This document shows, piece by piece, positions 4,864-31,563 of a DNA stretch of 36,583 nucleotides. Source of the stretch: a virus. The DNA lies in IMG/VR virus record IMGVR_UViG_3300040958_000031, positions 1 to 36,583 of that record; one strand, given 5' to 3'. Numbering within the stretch: the first letter of the stretch is position 1; every line of letters starts with the position of its first letter. The notes beneath the pieces are model-generated. The model made no database searches. It was not told the origin of the DNA and saw only the letters and a program-made list of their open reading frames with translations. A program made the position numbers and the translations under genes.

Positions 4864-5180
4864 GTGAACGCAAGTGGACGCCGGGGCCGTGGGCTATCGA
4901 CTTCAGCTCGATCATCAGCAAGGCGGACGCGCTGCCAGCTGGTCGCGTGCATGGCTACGGATGCGGGAACGATTTCGTCGCCGATCTGAACGACGGTGAA
5001 TATCACGAATACACCGACCGCGATGAGCAGGATGCTAACGCCCATCTGATCGCCGCGGCGCCGGATCTGTATGAGGCGCTGGATAAAGTGAACCGTTGGT
5101 TCAACGGCGCTGAAACGGAAATCGGAATGATCCTCAGAGAAGCAAACGTCGCTTTGAAGAAAGCACGAGGCCAAGCATGA
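4860..5180 (+). CDS. Conserved phage protein with KWTPGPW and AAPDLYEAL motifs
   Basis: The start at ATG 4860 overlaps the preceding TGA. The 106-residue protein begins with KWTPGPWAI and has DEQDANAHLIAAAPDLYEALDK (residues about 57-78). This pair of motifs is seen in many phage-encoded proteins of unknown function in which the text between them varies. The family is widespread in early regions of siphoviruses, but no biochemical role is known to me. It ends coupled to the next gene. Confidence 0.75.
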   Translation: MSERKWTPGPWAIDFSSIISKADALPAGRVHGYGCGNDFVADLNDGEYHEYTDRDEQDANAHLIAAAPDLYEALDKVNRWFNGAETEIGMILREANVALKKARGQA

Positions 5181-5758
5181 CCACCAAGAGCCGCAAGGCC
5201 AACAAGCAACGCCGCGCCGCTCTTGCCGGCGGTCTGGCAAAATCCAAGAGGCCTATCACGATGATCACAGCAGCATGGGACCACGGCGCTACCGGCCAAG
5301 CCAATCGGGCAGGGCTGGTCATCGAGGAGCGCGGCGAGGTGGACGCCAAGACCGGCAAGACTACGAACCCGAACGGCGTGACCGGCGCCAGGCGTGTCGA
5401 CCTGCTGGAGTTCTGGCACAAGCGTGGCAACATCAGCACGGCAGGCTTCAACGCAGCCACTGCCCTGCGTGACGCGTTCGAGGGCACCTTGCGCGGCAAG
5501 CCTGCGCTGCCGGACAACGACCGGGTACAGTCCAGCCCCAAGCCGGACCATGCGGTGACGATCCAGATCGATCGGCTGAGCAAGTACGAAAAGCTGTCCC
5601 GCCATGTTCAGCTTGGCGACCGGCAGATCATCACCGCCTGCGTGCTGGACGGGCACCACCCGTCATCGGTCTACGGCGCGCTGCGGGTCCGTGATGGGTT
5701 CGCTCATCTGCGAGTGGCGCTAGATCGGCTGTCCGAATCAATGGGGCGCACAAGATAG
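5177..5758 (+). CDS. Last gene of the early operon, DUF6456-like, possible late regulator
   Basis: The 193-residue protein starts in an ATGA overlap. A basic N-terminus (TTKSRKANKQRRAAL) leads to a central segment with RRVDLLEFWHKRGNISTAGFNAA. The C-terminal helical region (RLSKYEKLSRHV, then VLDGHHPSSVYGALRVRDGFAHLRVALDRL) has the layout of DUF6456-type domains of Rhodobacterales phage and chromosomal HTH proteins. Being last before a promoter, structured RNA and the late genes, it could control the early-late switch, as Q or RinA-like proteins do elsewhere. That is positional inference. No metal-binding or catalytic motif is visible. Confidence 0.6.
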   Translation: MTTKSRKANKQRRAALAGGLAKSKRPITMITAAWDHGATGQANRAGLVIEERGEVDAKTGKTTNPNGVTGARRVDLLEFWHKRGNISTAGFNAATALRDAFEGTLRGKPALPDNDRVQSSPKPDHAVTIQIDRLSKYEKLSRHVQLGDRQIITACVLDGHHPSSVYGALRVRDGFAHLRVALDRLSESMGRTR

Positions 5759-5760
5759 GG

Positions 5761-5789
5761 TTGTCAAACACGAAAAGACGTGCTATCCC
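5761..5789 (+). promoter_or_regulatory. Sigma70-like promoter for the structured RNA
   Basis: TTGTCA at 5761-5766 (five of six to TTGACA) is followed after exactly 17 nt by TATCCC at 5784-5789. The -10 is weak by the E. coli consensus but reads CTAT in the alphaproteobacterial style. A start near 5794-5797 would place the first perfect hairpin at the RNA 5' end. It begins 2 bp after the stop of the early operon. Confidence 0.55.
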
Positions 5790-5848
5790 AATAATCGCAG
5801 GCGATTGGTAACTCTATGCCTGCGATCCGCTTTCTGGCGGTGCAATAA

Positions 5849-5916
5849 GGCCTGTAGCTCAGATGGTAGAGCAAGCCGCAGGGCAGAAGGTCGCGGGTTC
5901 AAGTCCCGTCAGGCTA
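5849..5916 (+). other. tRNA-like domain lacking an anticodon arm
   Basis: A canonical D-arm (GCTC 5857-5860, loop AGATGGTA, GAGC 5869-5872) and T-arm (GCGGG, loop TTCAAGT, CCCGT at 5893-5909) are joined by an acceptor-like helix GGCCTG 5849-5854 with CAGGCT 5910-5915. The variable loop AGGTC is normal. Between position 26 and the variable loop are 14 nt instead of 17, and they cannot form a 5-bp anticodon stem; only GCC/GGC with loop GCAG is possible. There is no CCA. It cannot serve as an ordinary tRNA and is probably a structural mimic or a degenerate tRNA fixed in the larger RNA. Confidence 0.65.
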
Positions 5917-6129
5917 GGGTGGCTTGATCAGCCGCCTTTATTGCACCTCCTGAACGCGGTTCGGTGCAACGGTCCCTTGCGTGCGAGGGAGGGAGCCTGC
6001 CGGAAATCAGGCTTACAGCCGCGCTCATCATAAGCCTCAGGCCCACGGTTCGAGTCCGTGCATGGATCAAGGGAAGATCAGGGGCCCGCAACCTACGGTC
6101 AATTGGTGACAGTGCGGAGAGACGCACAC

Positions 6130-6160
6130 AGCCCGCCCCGTTAGTTCGGAGCGGGCTTTT
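6130..6160 (+). terminator. Intrinsic terminator of the structured RNA
   Basis: AGCCCGC at 6130-6136 pairs with GCGGGCT at 6151-6157. The stem is extended by CCG 6138-6140 with CGG 6147-6149 across a C-A mismatch, and is followed by TTTT to 6160. GGGGC at 6081-6085 could pair with GCCCC at 6135-6139 and compete with the terminator. Confidence 0.8.
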
Positions 6161-6342: not shown

Positions 6343-6708
6343 ATGGCTAGGCTCAAGGCTCCACCGTCCAGGCTTACGGCAATGCGGCCTGTGCTGGTCG
6401 CTCCCAAGGGGGAGCAGGGCCGCACGGCATACCGCAGGCAGGCTACCCCCTGGCGCGCATGGTACAACACGGCGCGCTGGCAGAAGCTACGCTGGCAGGT
6501 GCTGAAGGACGCAGCGTTCATCTGCGCTATGTGTGGGAAAGCAGAGAGTGACACATCGAAATTGGTTTGCGATCACATTCGTCCCCATAGGGGCCGGGAT
6601 GGGCTTTTTTGGGACCGCGCCAACCTGCAATGTTTGTGCAAGTCATGCCACGACGGCGAAAAACAGAGGCAAGAGAAGCGCCAAGGATTCACAGCAAAGT
6701 TTTGGTGA
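6343..6708 (+). CDS. HNH endonuclease of the packaging module
   Basis: The 121-residue protein has a basic N-terminus, then WYNTARWQKLRWQVLKDA, a zinc-binding CAMCG, and the HNH core CDHIRPHRG, NLQCLCKSCH. This is the compact HNH type found next to terminase genes of cos-type HK97-like phages (HK97 gp74 family), where it is needed with the terminase for specific cutting of genome concatemers. Its place two genes before the terminase subunits fits that role, and it should not be grouped with the mobile nucleases elsewhere in the window. A start at ATG 6343 leaves a 6-bp gap from the small ORF. Confidence 0.85.
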   Translation: MARLKAPPSRLTAMRPVLVAPKGEQGRTAYRRQATPWRAWYNTARWQKLRWQVLKDAAFICAMCGKAESDTSKLVCDHIRPHRGRDGLFWDRANLQCLCKSCHDGEKQRQEKRQGFTAKFW

Positions 6709-6779: not shown

Positions 6780-7349
6780 ATGGCTGAAATCCATTCTACA
6801 TGTATCGTGTGTGGAGCGCAATTCTCATATACCCATGAAGGCTCAGGCCGACGCAGGCTGTTCTGCACGGGTGAGTGCAAGACATCGCGCAAAGCAGAGC
6901 AGATGGCGAGCTACCGCACTCCGCCTCAGTACCAATCGACGTGCAAGAGGTGTGGGTCCTCGTTCATTGCGAAGAAGCCTGGAGCTTTCATCTGCTCAGT
7001 TGCATGCAGGCAAGCGCTGAAGCGGGTTCGCAAGAAGGCCCAGGGCTGGAAGCGTCCACCGCAGCATACGTACTGGGCAATAAAGAGAGCGAGGAAGAGG
7101 ACTGCGCAGGTTGAGCCCGTTGATCCAATGCAGGTCTTTGCTCGCGATAAGTGGAGATGCCACCTGTGTGGTGTGAAGACAAGGCAGTCTAAGAGGGGAA
7201 CGACTGAGGCCCTTGCTCCTGAGCTTGACCATATCGTTCCTCTTTCTCAGGGCGGAGAACATTCATATCGCAACACGGCATGTGCGTGCAGGTCGTGCAA
7301 CTCTGCGAAGGGCGCGCGCATGCTAGGGCAGATGCGGCTGTTCGGGTGA
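6780..7349 (+). CDS. Free-standing HNH endonuclease with two zinc ribbons
   Basis: The 189-residue protein begins with two zinc-ribbon-like modules, CIVCG with FCTGEC (residues 8-37) and CKRCG with FICSVAC. A basic linker rich in Arg and Lys follows, and then an HNH domain: DKWRCHLCG, ELDHIVPLSQGG, CACRSCNSAKG. Such HNH proteins are typical mobile or homing endonucleases in phages. It is inserted between the packaging HNH gene and the small terminase gene and is preceded by its own promoter and leader. Its codon use is less GC-biased than the neighbouring structural genes, consistent with separate transfer. Target site unknown. Confidence 0.8.
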   Translation: MAEIHSTCIVCGAQFSYTHEGSGRRRLFCTGECKTSRKAEQMASYRTPPQYQSTCKRCGSSFIAKKPGAFICSVACRQALKRVRKKAQGWKRPPQHTYWAIKRARKRTAQVEPVDPMQVFARDKWRCHLCGVKTRQSKRGTTEALAPELDHIVPLSQGGEHSYRNTACACRSCNSAKGARMLGQMRLFG

Positions 7350-7480
7350 TCGAGCTAGGGGGGGTGCCCCAAGGCCGAAAGGCGGCTACCTCCCAAGACC
7401 CGCGCTCAAGGCATCCGCAGATAATCTTCGGGCTGTTTGATTACTTCAGCCCCCAATTCAATCAATTCAAAGGTGATGCA
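7350..7480 (+). other. Intergenic region before the small terminase gene
   Basis: No gene is seen. The segment has a G-run followed by TGCCCC (7360-7372), a GGCCGAAAGGC mini-hairpin and GGGCTG...CAGCCC around 7429-7453. AAAGG at 7469-7473 is the ribosome-binding site of the terminase gene. A cos site would be expected hereabouts in a cos phage, but I cannot identify one. Confidence 0.4.
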
Positions 7481-7813
7481 ATGGCCCGAGGCGGTGCGCG
7501 TCCGGGTGCTGGTCGCCCGAAAAAAGAGGCGGGCAAAGCGCCTGCGATCAAGAATGATGCGGCTGCCAACCGGCCGCGCAAATCCTTGGGCGGCCTGACG
7601 CCCTTGGAGTACATGCTTGCCGTGATGAACGACGATGGGGCGGATGATCTGCGCCGCGATAGGATGGCGCAGTCAGCAGCGCCTTACGTCCATGTCCGCG
7701 CGGTCGAGGCGGCGCCGGGCAAGAAGGAGCAGAAGCAGGCTGCGGCTGAGGAGGCCACCAAGGGCCGCTTTGCGCCGCGGCAGGGTCCGCGCCTGGCTGT
7801 TAAGAATGACTGA
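7481..7813 (+). CDS. terS: Terminase small subunit
   Basis: ATG 7481 follows AAAGGTGATGCA; longer in-frame starts upstream lie in the HNH gene. The 110-residue protein opens with RGGARPGAGRPKKEAGK, the Arg/Gly/Pro-rich N-terminus common in small terminase subunits of HK97-like alphaproteobacterial phages. It then has the segment LTPLEYMLAVMNDDGADDLRRDRMA and an Ala/Lys-rich tail. The subunit recognises the packaging site and stimulates the large subunit. It overlaps the large-subunit gene by 8 bp, as expected for an obligate pair. Confidence 0.85.
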   Translation: MARGGARPGAGRPKKEAGKAPAIKNDAAANRPRKSLGGLTPLEYMLAVMNDDGADDLRRDRMAQSAAPYVHVRAVEAAPGKKEQKQAAAEEATKGRFAPRQGPRLAVKND

Positions 7814-9482
7814 CTGGACGACCGCCTGCCCTGACTGGGAAAGGCGGATTGTGGCGAAAGAGGGTTTGATACCGTTCGCGCCACTGTTCCCCGGTGAAGC
7901 TGAGTACGCGCTGAGCGTGTTCAAGGATCTTCGGGTGGCCGACCTTCCGGGCAAGCCCCGGTTTGGGGATTGCTGCGAAGACTGGATCTTCGACTTCGTG
8001 GCCTCGATCTTCGGCGCCAACGATCCGGAGACAGGAAACCAGCTGATTGCGGAGTTCTTCCTCTGCATCAGCAAGAAGAATGCCAAGTCCACGCTGGCGG
8101 CCGGGATCATGATGACAGCGCTCATCACCGGCTGGCGCGAGGAGGAGGAGCTGCTGATCCTTGCCCCGACGATTGAGGTCGCGGGGAACAGCTTCAAGCC
8201 CGCAGCGGCTATGGTTCGCGCCGATCCTGAGCTGGATGCCATGTTCCACGTCCAGGATCATAGCCGGACCATCACGCACCGGGTCAACCGGTCGTCGCTG
8301 AAGGTTGTTGCAGCTGAGACGGACACCGTGTCGGGGAAAAAGTCCGGGCGCGTACTGATCGATGAGCTGTGGATCTTCGGCAAGCGCCCCGGTGCTGATG
8401 CGATGCTGCGCGAGGCTACGGGCGGCATGATTTCGCGGCCTGAGGGCTTCGTGGTCTATCTGACGACGCAATCGGATGCCCCGCCGGCCGGGGTGTTCAA
8501 GGATAAGCTGGATTACGCCCGAGATGTGCGGGACGGCAAGATCGTGGATAAGCGGTTCCTGCCGGTCATCTACGAGTTCCCCAAGAAGTTGATGGACAAC
8601 CAGGGCTACCTGCAGCCTTCGAACTTCTACATCACCAACCCGAATATGGGCCGATCGGTCAGCCAGGATTGGCTCGATCGGGAGATGGGTAAGGAGCTGG
8701 CAAAAGACGCCAGTACGCGGGCGACTTTCCTCGCCAAGCACCTGAACGTCGAGATCGGGATGAACCTGCGGTCCAACCGCTGGCCCGGCGCCGACTACTG
8801 GGCAAAGCGTGCAGAGCAGGGGCTTGACCTTGAGGCGATCCTAGGTCGGTCCGAGGTTGTTGTCGTCGGCTTGGACGGCGGTGGCGCAGACGATCTGTTC
8901 GGCGTAGCTGTGGTAGGGCGGGACGCCCAATCCAAGGATTGGCTGGCTTGGCACCATGCCTGGTGTCATGCGGGGGTTATGGAACGGCGCAAGAGCATCG
9001 CGCCGCGACTGCGGGACTTCGAGACAGAGGGCAGCCTGACAATCGTCGGCGATGAGCTGGACGACATTCGCCAAATTGTGGAGCTTATCCAAGACATCGA
9101 TCAGCGTCGGCTGCTGGCTTCCGTCGCGGCTGACCCTGCGGGCCTGGGCGAGATGATTGATGCTCTAGCTGAAATCGACGTCACGCCAGACAACGGCAAG
9201 CTGATCGGGGCTCCGCAGGGCTGGGCCTTGATGAACGCCATCAAGACGACGGAACGGAAGCTGATCAACGGTACGATGAAGCATGACGGGTCCGCGCTAA
9301 TGGCGTGGTGCGTGAGCAACATCAAGATCGAGCCGACGGCGACCGGCATCCGGGCGACCAAGCAGAATGCGGGTGATCTGAAGATCGACCCCGCGATGGC
9401 ACTTTTCGACGCGGTTACGGTGATGAGCCGGAACCCCGAGCCGGCCCGTCAGCCGGAATACCAGATGCTGATTATCGGCTGA
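7806..9482 (+). CDS. terL: Terminase large subunit (HK97 type)
   Basis: The 558-residue ATPase/nuclease packages DNA into the prohead. ATG 7806 gives MTDWTTACPDW, and it overlaps the terS stop. The ATPase domain has a variant Walker A, SKKNAKST (residues 89-96), of the Terminase_1 family and a Walker B, VLIDE (183-187), followed by FVVYLTTQSDAP as motif III. The C-terminal RNase H-like nuclease begins at VVGLDGGGADD with the first catalytic Asp at about 357, and further acids lie in GDELDD and DPAMALFDAV. The length is normal and no disruption is seen. Family resemblance is to HK97-like terminases, which usually make cohesive ends. Confidence 0.95.
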   Translation: MTDWTTACPDWERRIVAKEGLIPFAPLFPGEAEYALSVFKDLRVADLPGKPRFGDCCEDWIFDFVASIFGANDPETGNQLIAEFFLCISKKNAKSTLAAGIMMTALITGWREEEELLILAPTIEVAGNSFKPAAAMVRADPELDAMFHVQDHSRTITHRVNRSSLKVVAAETDTVSGKKSGRVLIDELWIFGKRPGADAMLREATGGMISRPEGFVVYLTTQSDAPPAGVFKDKLDYARDVRDGKIVDKRFLPVIYEFPKKLMDNQGYLQPSNFYITNPNMGRSVSQDWLDREMGKELAKDASTRATFLAKHLNVEIGMNLRSNRWPGADYWAKRAEQGLDLEAILGRSEVVVVGLDGGGADDLFGVAVVGRDAQSKDWLAWHHAWCHAGVMERRKSIAPRLRDFETEGSLTIVGDELDDIRQIVELIQDIDQRRLLASVAADPAGLGEMIDALAEIDVTPDNGKLIGAPQGWALMNAIKTTERKLINGTMKHDGSALMAWCVSNIKIEPTATGIRATKQNAGDLKIDPAMALFDAVTVMSRNPEPARQPEYQMLIIG

Positions 9483-9488
9483 TCTTGA

Positions 9489-9581
9489 TTGATATAGGCG
9501 ATTGATTCAGATAAAATAAACGGGCCGATACGGTGTCTCACCACCACATCGGCCCTTACCATCAAGACGCGATTGGAGCGC
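9489..9581 (+). promoter_or_regulatory. Homing-endonuclease leader element B
   Basis: TTGATA 9489-9494, a 17-nt spacer and TAAAAT 9512-9517 form a strong promoter just past the terL stop. Outer stem GGGCCGAT 9522-9529 pairs with ATCGGCCC 9548-9555. Inner stem GGTG 9532-9535 pairs with CACC 9542-9545 across a symmetric AC/AC internal loop, loop TCTCAC. The linker TTACC leads to mini-stem GCG 9569-9571 with CGC 9579-9581 and Shine-Dalgarno loop ATTGGAG; ATG at 9587. Confidence 0.75.
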
Positions 9582-9586
9582 ATCAA

Positions 9587-10291
9587 ATGGCTGTATCCGG
9601 TATATATGAAATCGTGAACCTCGTGAACGGAAAACGTTACGTTGGGAGTGCGGTAAATCTGGCTAGGCGCAAGGCGGATCACATCCGACGCCTGCGTAAG
9701 CAGGATCACCATAGCCGCGCGCTGCAAAGCGCATGGATCAAGTACGGTGAGGAAGCTTTTCAGTTCCGGACTATCGTCGTCTGTGACCGAGAAAGCCTCA
9801 TTCTGGAAGAACAGAAAGCAATAGATTGCAAGTCTGAATACAACATGACCCGCGCTGCGGGCTCATGCTTAGGGCGTGTTTTAAGCGACGAAACTAAGAC
9901 TAAAATAGCAGATAGGCGGAGAGGGACTAAATGCCCACCGAGGTCTGAGGCTCACCGTCAAAAGCTGAGTGAAGCCCAAAAGGGCAAGATGAAAAGCGAA
10001 GCGCATATGGCAGCCCTGCAGAACGCAAGGCGAGGGTATGTTCTGACAGACCAAGATAAGCTTGCTCGTGCAGAAGGGATGAGGCGCGCTTACGCGAATG
10101 GCCTCAGAAATCCATCCAAAGATCAAAACGTCCGAGACAAGATTGCTGCGACTTTGCGGGAGCGTTCCAATGATCCTCTCATTAAAGACAAATTGAGCAA
10201 GCAGGCTTCTTCTTATTGGGCTTCCATGACTGCGGAAGAGCGTAAGGCTCGGTGCGCTCACATGCGAGCGGGTCGGCAGCTAGCAAAATAA
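9587..10291 (+). CDS. GIY-YIG homing endonuclease with NUMOD3 repeats
   Basis: The start at ATG 9587 is set by the Shine-Dalgarno hairpin. The 234-residue protein has the GIY motif at residues 5-7, YVG at 18-20, catalytic-type Arg at 27-28 and a Glu in ILEEQKAID around residue 70. This completes the I-TevI-type active site. The rest contains repeated NUMOD3-like segments: SDETKTKIADRRRG, SEAHRQKLSEAQKG, SEAHMAALQNARRG. It has the form of a T4 Seg-like free-standing homing endonuclease. It lies between terL and the protease/capsid gene, where it interrupts the late operon without breaking a gene. Expression is probably from its own leader. Confidence 0.9.
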   Translation: MAVSGIYEIVNLVNGKRYVGSAVNLARRKADHIRRLRKQDHHSRALQSAWIKYGEEAFQFRTIVVCDRESLILEEQKAIDCKSEYNMTRAAGSCLGRVLSDETKTKIADRRRGTKCPPRSEAHRQKLSEAQKGKMKSEAHMAALQNARRGYVLTDQDKLARAEGMRRAYANGLRNPSKDQNVRDKIAATLRERSNDPLIKDKLSKQASSYWASMTAEERKARCAHMRAGRQLAK

Positions 10292-12341: not shown

Positions 12342-12437
12342 TAAACTTGCTTCGTGCGTCTAGGGTAGCTCCCGAAAAGCCGTTTCCTAGCGGTCTGACG
12401 CACGCATCATCTAGGAATTGCTTCTATAGGAGGAAGC
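12342..12437 (+). promoter_or_regulatory. Homing-endonuclease leader element E (variant)
   Basis: TAAACT at 12342-12347 is the same -10-like word as in element A; no clear -35 is seen. Outer stem CGTGCGTC 12353-12360 pairs with GACGCACG 12397-12404. Inside, TAGG 12361-12364 can pair with CCTA 12386-12389. Then mini-stem GCTTC 12420-12424 with GAAGC 12433-12437 shows TATAGGAG, with the Shine-Dalgarno, in an 8-nt loop; ATG at 12439. The layout matches elements A-D but the inner hairpin is larger and the linker differs. Confidence 0.5.
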
Positions 12438-12438
12438 C

Positions 12439-13230
12439 ATGGCCGTGTTTATCTACGGGCTTCATTGCCCGTTGTCCGGTGAAATCCGCTACATTGGGAA
12501 GTCGGTTAACCCGCAGAAGAGGCTTAGGGCGCATATTTCCTGTGCTGTCCGGGGCGCTGCTGATCATCACACTTCCCGGTGGATCAGGCGATTAGCAGCA
12601 TGCGATCTTATGCCGTTATTGGTCATCTTGCACGAAGTTGGACCAGACGAGAGATGGCAGGACGTTGAACGTAGGCTTATTGCTGACGCAATCCAACTCG
12701 GACTGCCTTTGACTAACTCCACCTCAGGCGGCGAGGGGCTGGATTACCTGAATGAAGAAGACCGCAATCGCTATCTGGCCAACAAGGCCAAGGCAATGGC
12801 CCAGTATCGAGACACGGAAGCGGGCAGGAAACAAATCGCCGCATTCGTGAAATTCGCTTCAAGCAACCCTGAGATTGTTGCGCGCCGAAATGAAGCAATC
12901 CGGAAAGCGTTGCGTAAGGAGGATGTGCGACGGCGCACCTCTGAGAAATCCAAGCAGACTGCGGCGATGCCCTCTGTCAAGGCCGCGCAATCCAAAGCAG
13001 CTAAGGCCCTTTGGTCCGATGAAGAATACCGCAAGCACAAGTTGGCTCACCTGAAGTCTGACGAATTTCGAGCGGCACAATCCGCCCGCATTGCAGCACG
13101 GTGGGCAGACCCAGAGGCCAAGGCCCGCCTGAAGGCAGGCCGCTGGACTGACGAGGCAAGGAAAGCCCAAGCCGACAGGATCAGGTCTAGGAACCAAAAG
13201 GCCGCAGGCCAAGTAGGAGCACGCACATGA
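12439..13230 (+). CDS. GIY-YIG homing endonuclease with C-terminal repeats
   Basis: The 263-residue protein has a slightly divergent GIY-YIG domain. FIYGL (residues 4-8) stands for GIY, RYIGKSVNPQKRLRAH (17 onwards) gives YIG and the catalytic Arg, and VERRLIADA supplies the Glu. The C-terminal half is basic and built from short repeats around a W-x-D/S-x-E pattern (LWSDEEYRKHK, RWADPEAKAR, RWTDEARKAQ), which probably bind DNA. It is inserted between the capsid gene and the 77-residue gene, overlapping the latter by 4 bp. It is a mobile element by type and place. Confidence 0.85.
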   Translation: MAVFIYGLHCPLSGEIRYIGKSVNPQKRLRAHISCAVRGAADHHTSRWIRRLAACDLMPLLVILHEVGPDERWQDVERRLIADAIQLGLPLTNSTSGGEGLDYLNEEDRNRYLANKAKAMAQYRDTEAGRKQIAAFVKFASSNPEIVARRNEAIRKALRKEDVRRRTSEKSKQTAAMPSVKAAQSKAAKALWSDEEYRKHKLAHLKSDEFRAAQSARIAARWADPEAKARLKAGRWTDEARKAQADRIRSRNQKAAGQVGART

Positions 13231-31195: not shown

Positions 31196-31563
31196 TCGCG
31201 TTTCTGAAAGAGCTGCTGCGCTCACCCGAGGCGCAGCGGGCACCGCACTACTGGGCCAGTGTCTACGGCGGCCACGCGTACTTGGCTCTCGGGCCGTGGG
31301 GCATCCTGGCGATCTACTCCAACATGTGGACGGCAGCATGGGTGGTGCCGGTGCTTTACCTGATGCTGTGGGAGTTGCCGCAGTTCCTGCTTTCGGATGC
31401 GCAAAGCTCAAAGCTCGCTTGGGACTGCCTGCTTGATACGGTGGCAGTCGCTTTCAGCTGCTACGCCGCAACATTTCTCGGAAGCCGCGACCTGAACATG
31501 GCGACGCTCTGCTGGGGCGCATCTGTCGGGGTGATGATAGTTGGAGTGAGGAAACGGCAATGA
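31192..31563 (+). CDS. Membrane protein in the lysis region
   Basis: The 123-residue protein has about three hydrophobic segments (YLALGPWGILAIYS, AWVVPVLYLMLWELPQFLL, VAVAFSCYAATFLG) and a basic C-terminus (RKRQ). It overlaps both neighbours by ATGA. Its place before the endolysin genes suggests a holin or membrane-associated lysis factor, but 2-3 membrane-spanning proteins are also common elsewhere in phages. No family recognised. Confidence 0.65.
   Translation: MIAFLKELLRSPEAQRAPHYWASVYGGHAYLALGPWGILAIYSNMWTAAWVVPVLYLMLWELPQFLLSDAQSSKLAWDCLLDTVAVAFSCYAATFLGSRDLNMATLCWGASVGVMIVGVRKRQ

Follow-up and report, generated by a model that had tools for sequence, protein, structure and literature searches.

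A gap of about 365 nt that holds no recognizable gene, located between the early genes and the terminase genes of a phage, raises a simple question: what does it encode? The window analyzed here is the whole stretch of 36,583 nt, i.e., positions 1 to 36,583 of the IMG/VR virus record IMGVR_UViG_3300040958_000031, and the gap lies at 5794-6160, between the open reading frame (ORF) at 5177-5758 and the genes for an HNH endonuclease and the small and large terminase subunits. An earlier note, made from the letters alone, had proposed a structured non-coding RNA for this place, after the last early ORF and before the terminase operon. The location and the lack of genes are as described in that note, since no ORF inside the gap matches a PHROG family. 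The upstream ORF gave no match in Pfam or PHROG searches. The features of the region are collected in Table 1.

Table 1. Coordinates of the features in and around the gap at 5794-6160, with the evidence for each.
Feature	Position	Strand	Evidence
Last ORF before the RNA	5177-5758	+	193 aa; homologues likewise placed in L005 (69%) and L006 (60%)
Promoter-like TTGTCA-17-TATCCC	5761-5789	+	Sole TTGNCN-N17-TAT on the window + strand
5′ hairpin ATCGCAGGC...GCCTGCGAT	5794-5826	+	Minimum-free-energy fold
10-bp helix, 5′ strand GGTGCAATAA, enclosing the tRNA-like domain	5839-5848	+	Perfect complement of 5938-5947
tRNA-like domain, anticodon arm shortened	5848-5917	+	Rfam RF00005, 37.5 bits (cut-off 29)
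Hairpin GGTGGCTTGATCAGCCGCC	5918-5936	+	Predicted fold
10-bp helix, 3′ strand	5938-5947	+	Perfect complement of 5839-5848
Conserved RNA motif, T-loop subtype	6030-6133	+	Covariance model R1, 110.3 bits; alignment A2; covariation
P1 (6034-6038 with 6081-6085), closing the three-way junction	6034-6085	+	Compensatory changes in 2/5 pairs; 96.7% of cells paired
P2, T-arm-like hairpin CACGGTTCGAGTCCGTG	6044-6060	+	Stem invariant, loop nearly so; form identical to a tRNA T arm
P3 hairpin, invariant loop AAGGGAA	6065-6079	+	3/4 pairs change on both sides; 100% paired
P4 (CAACC 6089-6093 with GGTG 6105-6108), core helix	6089-6108	+	Covariation, 12/12; independent test with 77 copies of the wide family
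P5 hairpin GTGCG-GAGAGA-CGCAC, core hairpin	6112-6127	+	Covariation among copies with other stems
Intrinsic terminator	6130-6160	+	Terminator prediction and fold
HNH endonuclease	6343-6708	+	PHROG 589, Pfam PF01844
Terminase small subunit	7280-7813	+	PHROG 641
Terminase large subunit	7635-9482	+	PHROG 9, E 6e-121

The intrinsic terminator that had been claimed at the 3′ end is present. The promoter claimed at the 5′ end did not pass the strict test of the promoter tool, but the site is the only one of its form on its strand, and similar sequences follow the same or an analogous gene in loci L005, L006, and L091. Between these ends, the 10-bp helix, which surrounds the tRNA-like domain and the hairpin at 5918-5936, is perfect, as had been stated; of 300 shuffled versions of the region, 9 contain a perfect inverted repeat this long. 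The domain enclosed by this helix was rightly called tRNA-like, as the Rfam match indicates, but it is rejected as a true tRNA because its anticodon region counts 14 nt (instead of 17) and forms only a 3-bp hairpin, CCA is absent at its 3′ end, and ARAGORN calls no tRNA there. A second GGTGCAA, at 5963-5969, could compete with 5839-5845 for TTGCACC (5941-5947), as a possible alternative pairing; L093 has a comparable arrangement, with two copies of TTGAGTGTGG and one of CACACTCAA.

The assertion that helix density lies far above that of the protein-coding flanks does not hold. The folding energy of the 367-nt region corresponds to z = -2.84 and that of its reverse complement to z = -3.85, while 240-nt sub-windows of the region are mostly unremarkable among 122 genome windows, the one at 6001 giving the second-lowest value. 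These z-scores are uninformative, and the region is not identifiable from folding energy alone.

The structured RNA is nevertheless real, and the evidence comes from the covariation and conservation of a stretch that had not been singled out before, 6030-6133. By blastn, positions 6041-6124 match an unannotated gap of Sinorhizobium phage phiM9 (82%, E 5e-13), and scanning IMG/VR and bacterial genomes with patterns yielded further copies, giving 12 distinct ones (the window, phiM9, eight other IMG/VR phages, Brucella tritici, and Mesorhizobium). The first search pattern fixed the T-arm; relaxed patterns added one copy and otherwise returned an identical set. Under a hand-written structure (P1, T-arm, AAGGGAA hairpin, P4, and P5), partly derived from these same 12 sequences, 93.9% of the cells in the five helices are paired, with 35 double-sided compensatory changes, against a mean of 10.5 in shuffled controls, none of which (0/500) reached as many. 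When the structure is slid along the same alignment, pairing falls to 25-36%, and RNAalifold independently recovers P1, P2, P3, and most of P4. Covariance model R1, of which the window is one of the 12 source sequences, finds one match in the window. Its search of 398 genomes of the order and 385 of the class, with 10 candidates scored per genome, returned a single genome, which is itself a source. Conservation of the helices in other phages, on which the earlier note had staked its proposal, is thus observed. A protein-coding origin was also considered, as the 3′ half of the motif translates as 'RPATYGQLVT' in several ORFs, and was rejected: non-multiple-of-three indels occur, phiM9 and L093 have stop codons, and the pairing extends perfectly to third codon positions, which together favor RNA.

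The 3′ part of the motif, AACNN...NNGTGACA followed by a hairpin with the loop GGAGAGAC, is far more widespread than the whole. This core consists of helix P4 (AACNN...NNGTG), a GACA linker, and hairpin P5 with the loop GGAGAGA, and the window carries both the AACNN/NNGTG helix (6089-6108) and the P5 loop GGAGAGA(C) (6112-6127). The exact 20-nt form of the core, GTGACNGCCGGAGAGACGGC, has at least 120 matches in IMG/VR. Distant matches lead to Stenotrophomonas phage phiSHP3, a Manatee Spring phage, and a Morganella phage-plasmid, to which later carriers were added, i.e., Pseudomonas phage Itty13, Morganella IME1369_02, Providencia PSTRCR_117lys, Bradyrhizobium ppBdUSDA122-1, and EBPR podovirus 1. 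Because every copy was found with a sequence pattern, more divergent members escape the search, and the patterns themselves account for part of the conservation at the positions they specify. The pairing of P4 was compared with shuffled sequences in two independent tests: a 5-bp helix forms in 64 of 106 distinct copies, versus 15 in shuffles, and with AACG as the only guide to the 5′ strand, both test pairs are present in 31 of 77 copies, with at most 17 in 500 partner shuffles. For P5, a scan without the common stem gave 25 distinct copies, 18 of which keep both stem pairs through other bases. Model R1 also scores some of the wide-family copies, with E down to 2e-4, scores that are not independent because these loci were picked by their P5 sequence.

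The window motif is thus one subtype of this family, in which a T-loop three-way junction is added 5′ of the common P4-P5 core. Four prophage copies, probably enterobacterial (L276 2410-2715, L285, L144, and L206), constitute a second subtype, with about 150 nt conserved upstream of the core (AGAATCAAAAA...GGCAACGTCAGCC). Two of these, L276 and L285, follow lysis genes, L276 also lying before a terminase gene. Tandem or degenerate second core copies stand beside the main one in L087 (5365-5466), L151, L236, and L142.

The core is usually present once per genome. Its pattern matched 37 of 40 genomes or records, at one place in 36 of them and as a tandem pair in the other, and a reversed control pattern gave no match in the same 40. 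It is rare in bacterial chromosomes, the exact 20-mer occurring in 2 of 399 Pseudomonadota genomes, and a search of E. coli with one enterobacterial copy returned no match. The sites are diverse: some copies precede terminase genes or border tRNA genes, and others separate gyrase genes, follow a capsid gene, or lie within ORFs. When the longest ORF in the 2.5 kb downstream is taken, it encodes a terminase for about 15 of the 84 cases, versus at least 1 of 80 random positions (approximate counts, taken among the best 25 families), and the other downstream families are varied, including polymerases, methylases, RecT, and gyrase. A single copy that often shortly precedes terminase genes, the location of cos sites, could also be a site acting at the DNA level (cos/pac or a single-strand origin); covariation is also expected of a hairpin formed by single-stranded DNA. 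This explanation is the least probable of those considered: the position varies widely, a tRNA-type T-loop lies inside, and nine copies directly precede a tRNA gene of the same orientation.

The core is indeed associated with tRNA genes. One is found within 400 nt of 13 of the 106 copies, compared with 3.5% of random positions, and among the 17 loci possessing any tRNA gene, 13 have it near the element; in 9 of these 13 tRNA-adjacent copies, the tRNA begins 5-13 nt past the element. Inspection of the Itty13 sequence revealed, after the core, a tRNA-like stretch enclosed by a CTGCATCGG/CCGATGCAG helix, a layout that matches the tRNA-like domain of the window. The interval around it (L250 2400-3740) is, by annotation, a nearly gene-free gap before the terminase, and contains, besides the core, a long insertion in the anticodon arm of the helix-held stretch and more T-arm-like hairpins; it appears to be a larger, multi-module RNA region. 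These neighbors and the tRNA-like domain would suit an RNA that is simply part of a phage tRNA array, either as a tRNA unit that has decayed or is unusual, or as a spacer processed by RNase P, and that has no function of its own. We consider this very unlikely, given that most copies have no tRNA gene nearby and that the core helices covary while the core loops remain invariant over very different phages, which speaks for selection on the core itself.

Copies inside ORFs suggest another possibility. The same ~100-nt motif that occupies intergenic sites is found within ORFs with DUF2312/GapR-like N-termini in L089 and L117, and within another ORF in L103. In L089 (689-1459) and L117 (about 931-1548), the motif is in frame, and the C-terminus of the product is cysteine-rich. 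A small mobile or self-processing RNA element (a ribozyme, or an RNA-coding repeat like the Rickettsia palindromic elements), inserting in intergenic regions and ORFs, would account for such placements, as well as for the 88% identity over 112 nt between phiM9 and L090, which are unlike phages, for the tandem copies in L151 and L236, and for the short, narrow spacing to adjacent tRNAs. It is, however, improbable: there is one copy per genome, no ribozyme or intron of Rfam was matched, and no insertion border or target site was identified.

The main rival is a cis-acting element of the late leader, in which the nascent RNA would modify RNA polymerase or sense a factor, allowing transcription to continue past the 6130-6160 terminator and reach the HNH/terminase operon. 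It is related to the role of a late-switch regulator first suggested for this region, and several observations fit it. In the window, the motif lies between a promoter-like site and a terminator, upstream of the terminase genes. A terminator directly follows the element in L090, L091, and L108 as well, and terminase genes are enriched downstream of the copies. The late leader/6S RNA region of phage lambda, with a promoter, an untranslated leader, and a terminator at the early/late boundary, offers the same arrangement. A second parallel is the putRNA of phage HK022, a genome with both putL and putR; it is likewise ~70 nt long with two stem-loops (PMC9378689), and some copies of the core are likewise in a phage leader position.

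Nevertheless, the conserved motif is not bound to the early/late boundary. Its positions and downstream genes are diverse, many sites lie outside leaders, and it is single in each genome, in contrast to the two put sites of HK022. Identity with put was rejected, as pattern search detects no GGAGAGAC hairpin in HK022, and the only match of model R1 to that genome (14.2 bits, E 0.41, at 31378) falls within a helicase gene. Terminators are not generally enriched, with one just downstream of 5 of 123 copies versus 2% at random, so that a discrete RNA end is not a general property of the family. Moreover, L005 and L006, terminase relatives of the window that share its upstream gene, have the promoter, a short leader, and the terminator but not the motif, and none of the other relatives scanned carries it. 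Since these relatives retain the leader without the motif, the RNA is an accessory module. Regulation of the late switch thus remains one of the rivals only, and an unlikely one.

Comparison with known RNAs agrees with the earlier view that the RNA falls outside known families. Against Rfam 15, the window gave only tRNA and int-alpA matches, and within 5794-6160 only the tRNA-like domain; the motif-bearing loci matched only tRNA, the named-phage loci nothing, and the short relatives, apart from the tRNA match of the window itself, gave a single sub-threshold match. The int-alpA RNA (45.7 bits, cut-off 35.8) is at 12353-12416, flanked by the ORF of a major head protein and a GIY-YIG-like ORF, a site that is not the integrase/alpA interval, contrary to its name. 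The ORF that follows it (12439-13230) has a weak GIY-YIG match, as a homing endonuclease ORF, and another homing endonuclease ORF, of the GIY-YIG type according to PHROG, is located at 9533-10291, between the terminase and the head protein. A cobalamin riboswitch was also envisaged for the motif, as the series AAGGGAA...CCCGCAAC...GGAGAGAC resembles the consensus of that riboswitch; it was rejected, with no Rfam match up to E = 10, and AAGGGAA is here a hairpin loop. The literature searched contains no description of the element or its core, which is weak evidence of novelty as many subscription journals fall outside its coverage.

The closest parallels are in organization. GOLLD (RF02032) is phage-encoded, near tRNAs, with a conserved 3′ region, a less conserved 5′ region, and an unknown function, and ROOL is phage-encoded near tRNA islands, its function likewise unknown (PMC12286853). 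Phage origin, proximity to tRNA genes, and a conserved 3′ part with variable 5′ parts are all found here. Membership in either family was rejected, as no Rfam model of them matches the window or its relatives, and size separates them: GOLLD often exceeds 800 nt, the core counts only ~40-60 nt, and the RNA of the window is much smaller than ROOL.

Altogether, we estimate as about an even chance that the region encodes a phage non-coding RNA of ~365 nt that is accessory, single-copy, and probably trans-acting, its 3′ core being conserved and its 5′ modules, among them tRNA-like parts, variable. Such an RNA would be transcribed as a discrete molecule from its own promoter between the early and late genes, and would end at the intrinsic terminator. 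Its 3′ module, P4-GACA-P5, is the one common to very many phages, with 5′ parts differing from phage to phage; in the subtype of the window, these include the three-way junction with the T-arm and AAGGGAA hairpin and, upstream, the tRNA-like domain in the 10-bp helix. A cis element serving one operon would explain the single copy, the variable position with variable neighbors, and the strongly conserved core less well than an RNA that acts in trans by way of a conserved host partner. The core may dock on this host component, most likely the translation or tRNA machinery, while tRNA-elbow-like modules may aid folding or binding. The T-arm, the AAGGGAA loop, and the tRNA neighbors together suggest that the RNA folds like a tRNA elbow and is linked to translation or the metabolism of tRNA.

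In a broader reading, held with somewhat less than even confidence, the P4-P5 core would define a large, uncatalogued class of trans-acting RNAs in phages of several proteobacterial classes, the window RNA being one subtype, whose tRNA-mimicking modules bind or divert a conserved host machine (the ribosome, tRNA enzymes, a tRNA-cutting defense, or RNA polymerase). The core looks like a widespread phage RNA outside the catalogued families, and may be seen as a short relative of GOLLD and ROOL in organization, unrelated to them in sequence. Its presence in cultured phages (Itty13, phiM9, phiSHP3, and the Morganella and Providencia phages), along with its conserved loops and tRNA-like modules, makes these ideas directly testable. 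A structured RNA found once per genome in at least 100 unrelated phages, supported by covariation and without an Rfam entry, points to a common phage function that protein-centered annotation has missed.
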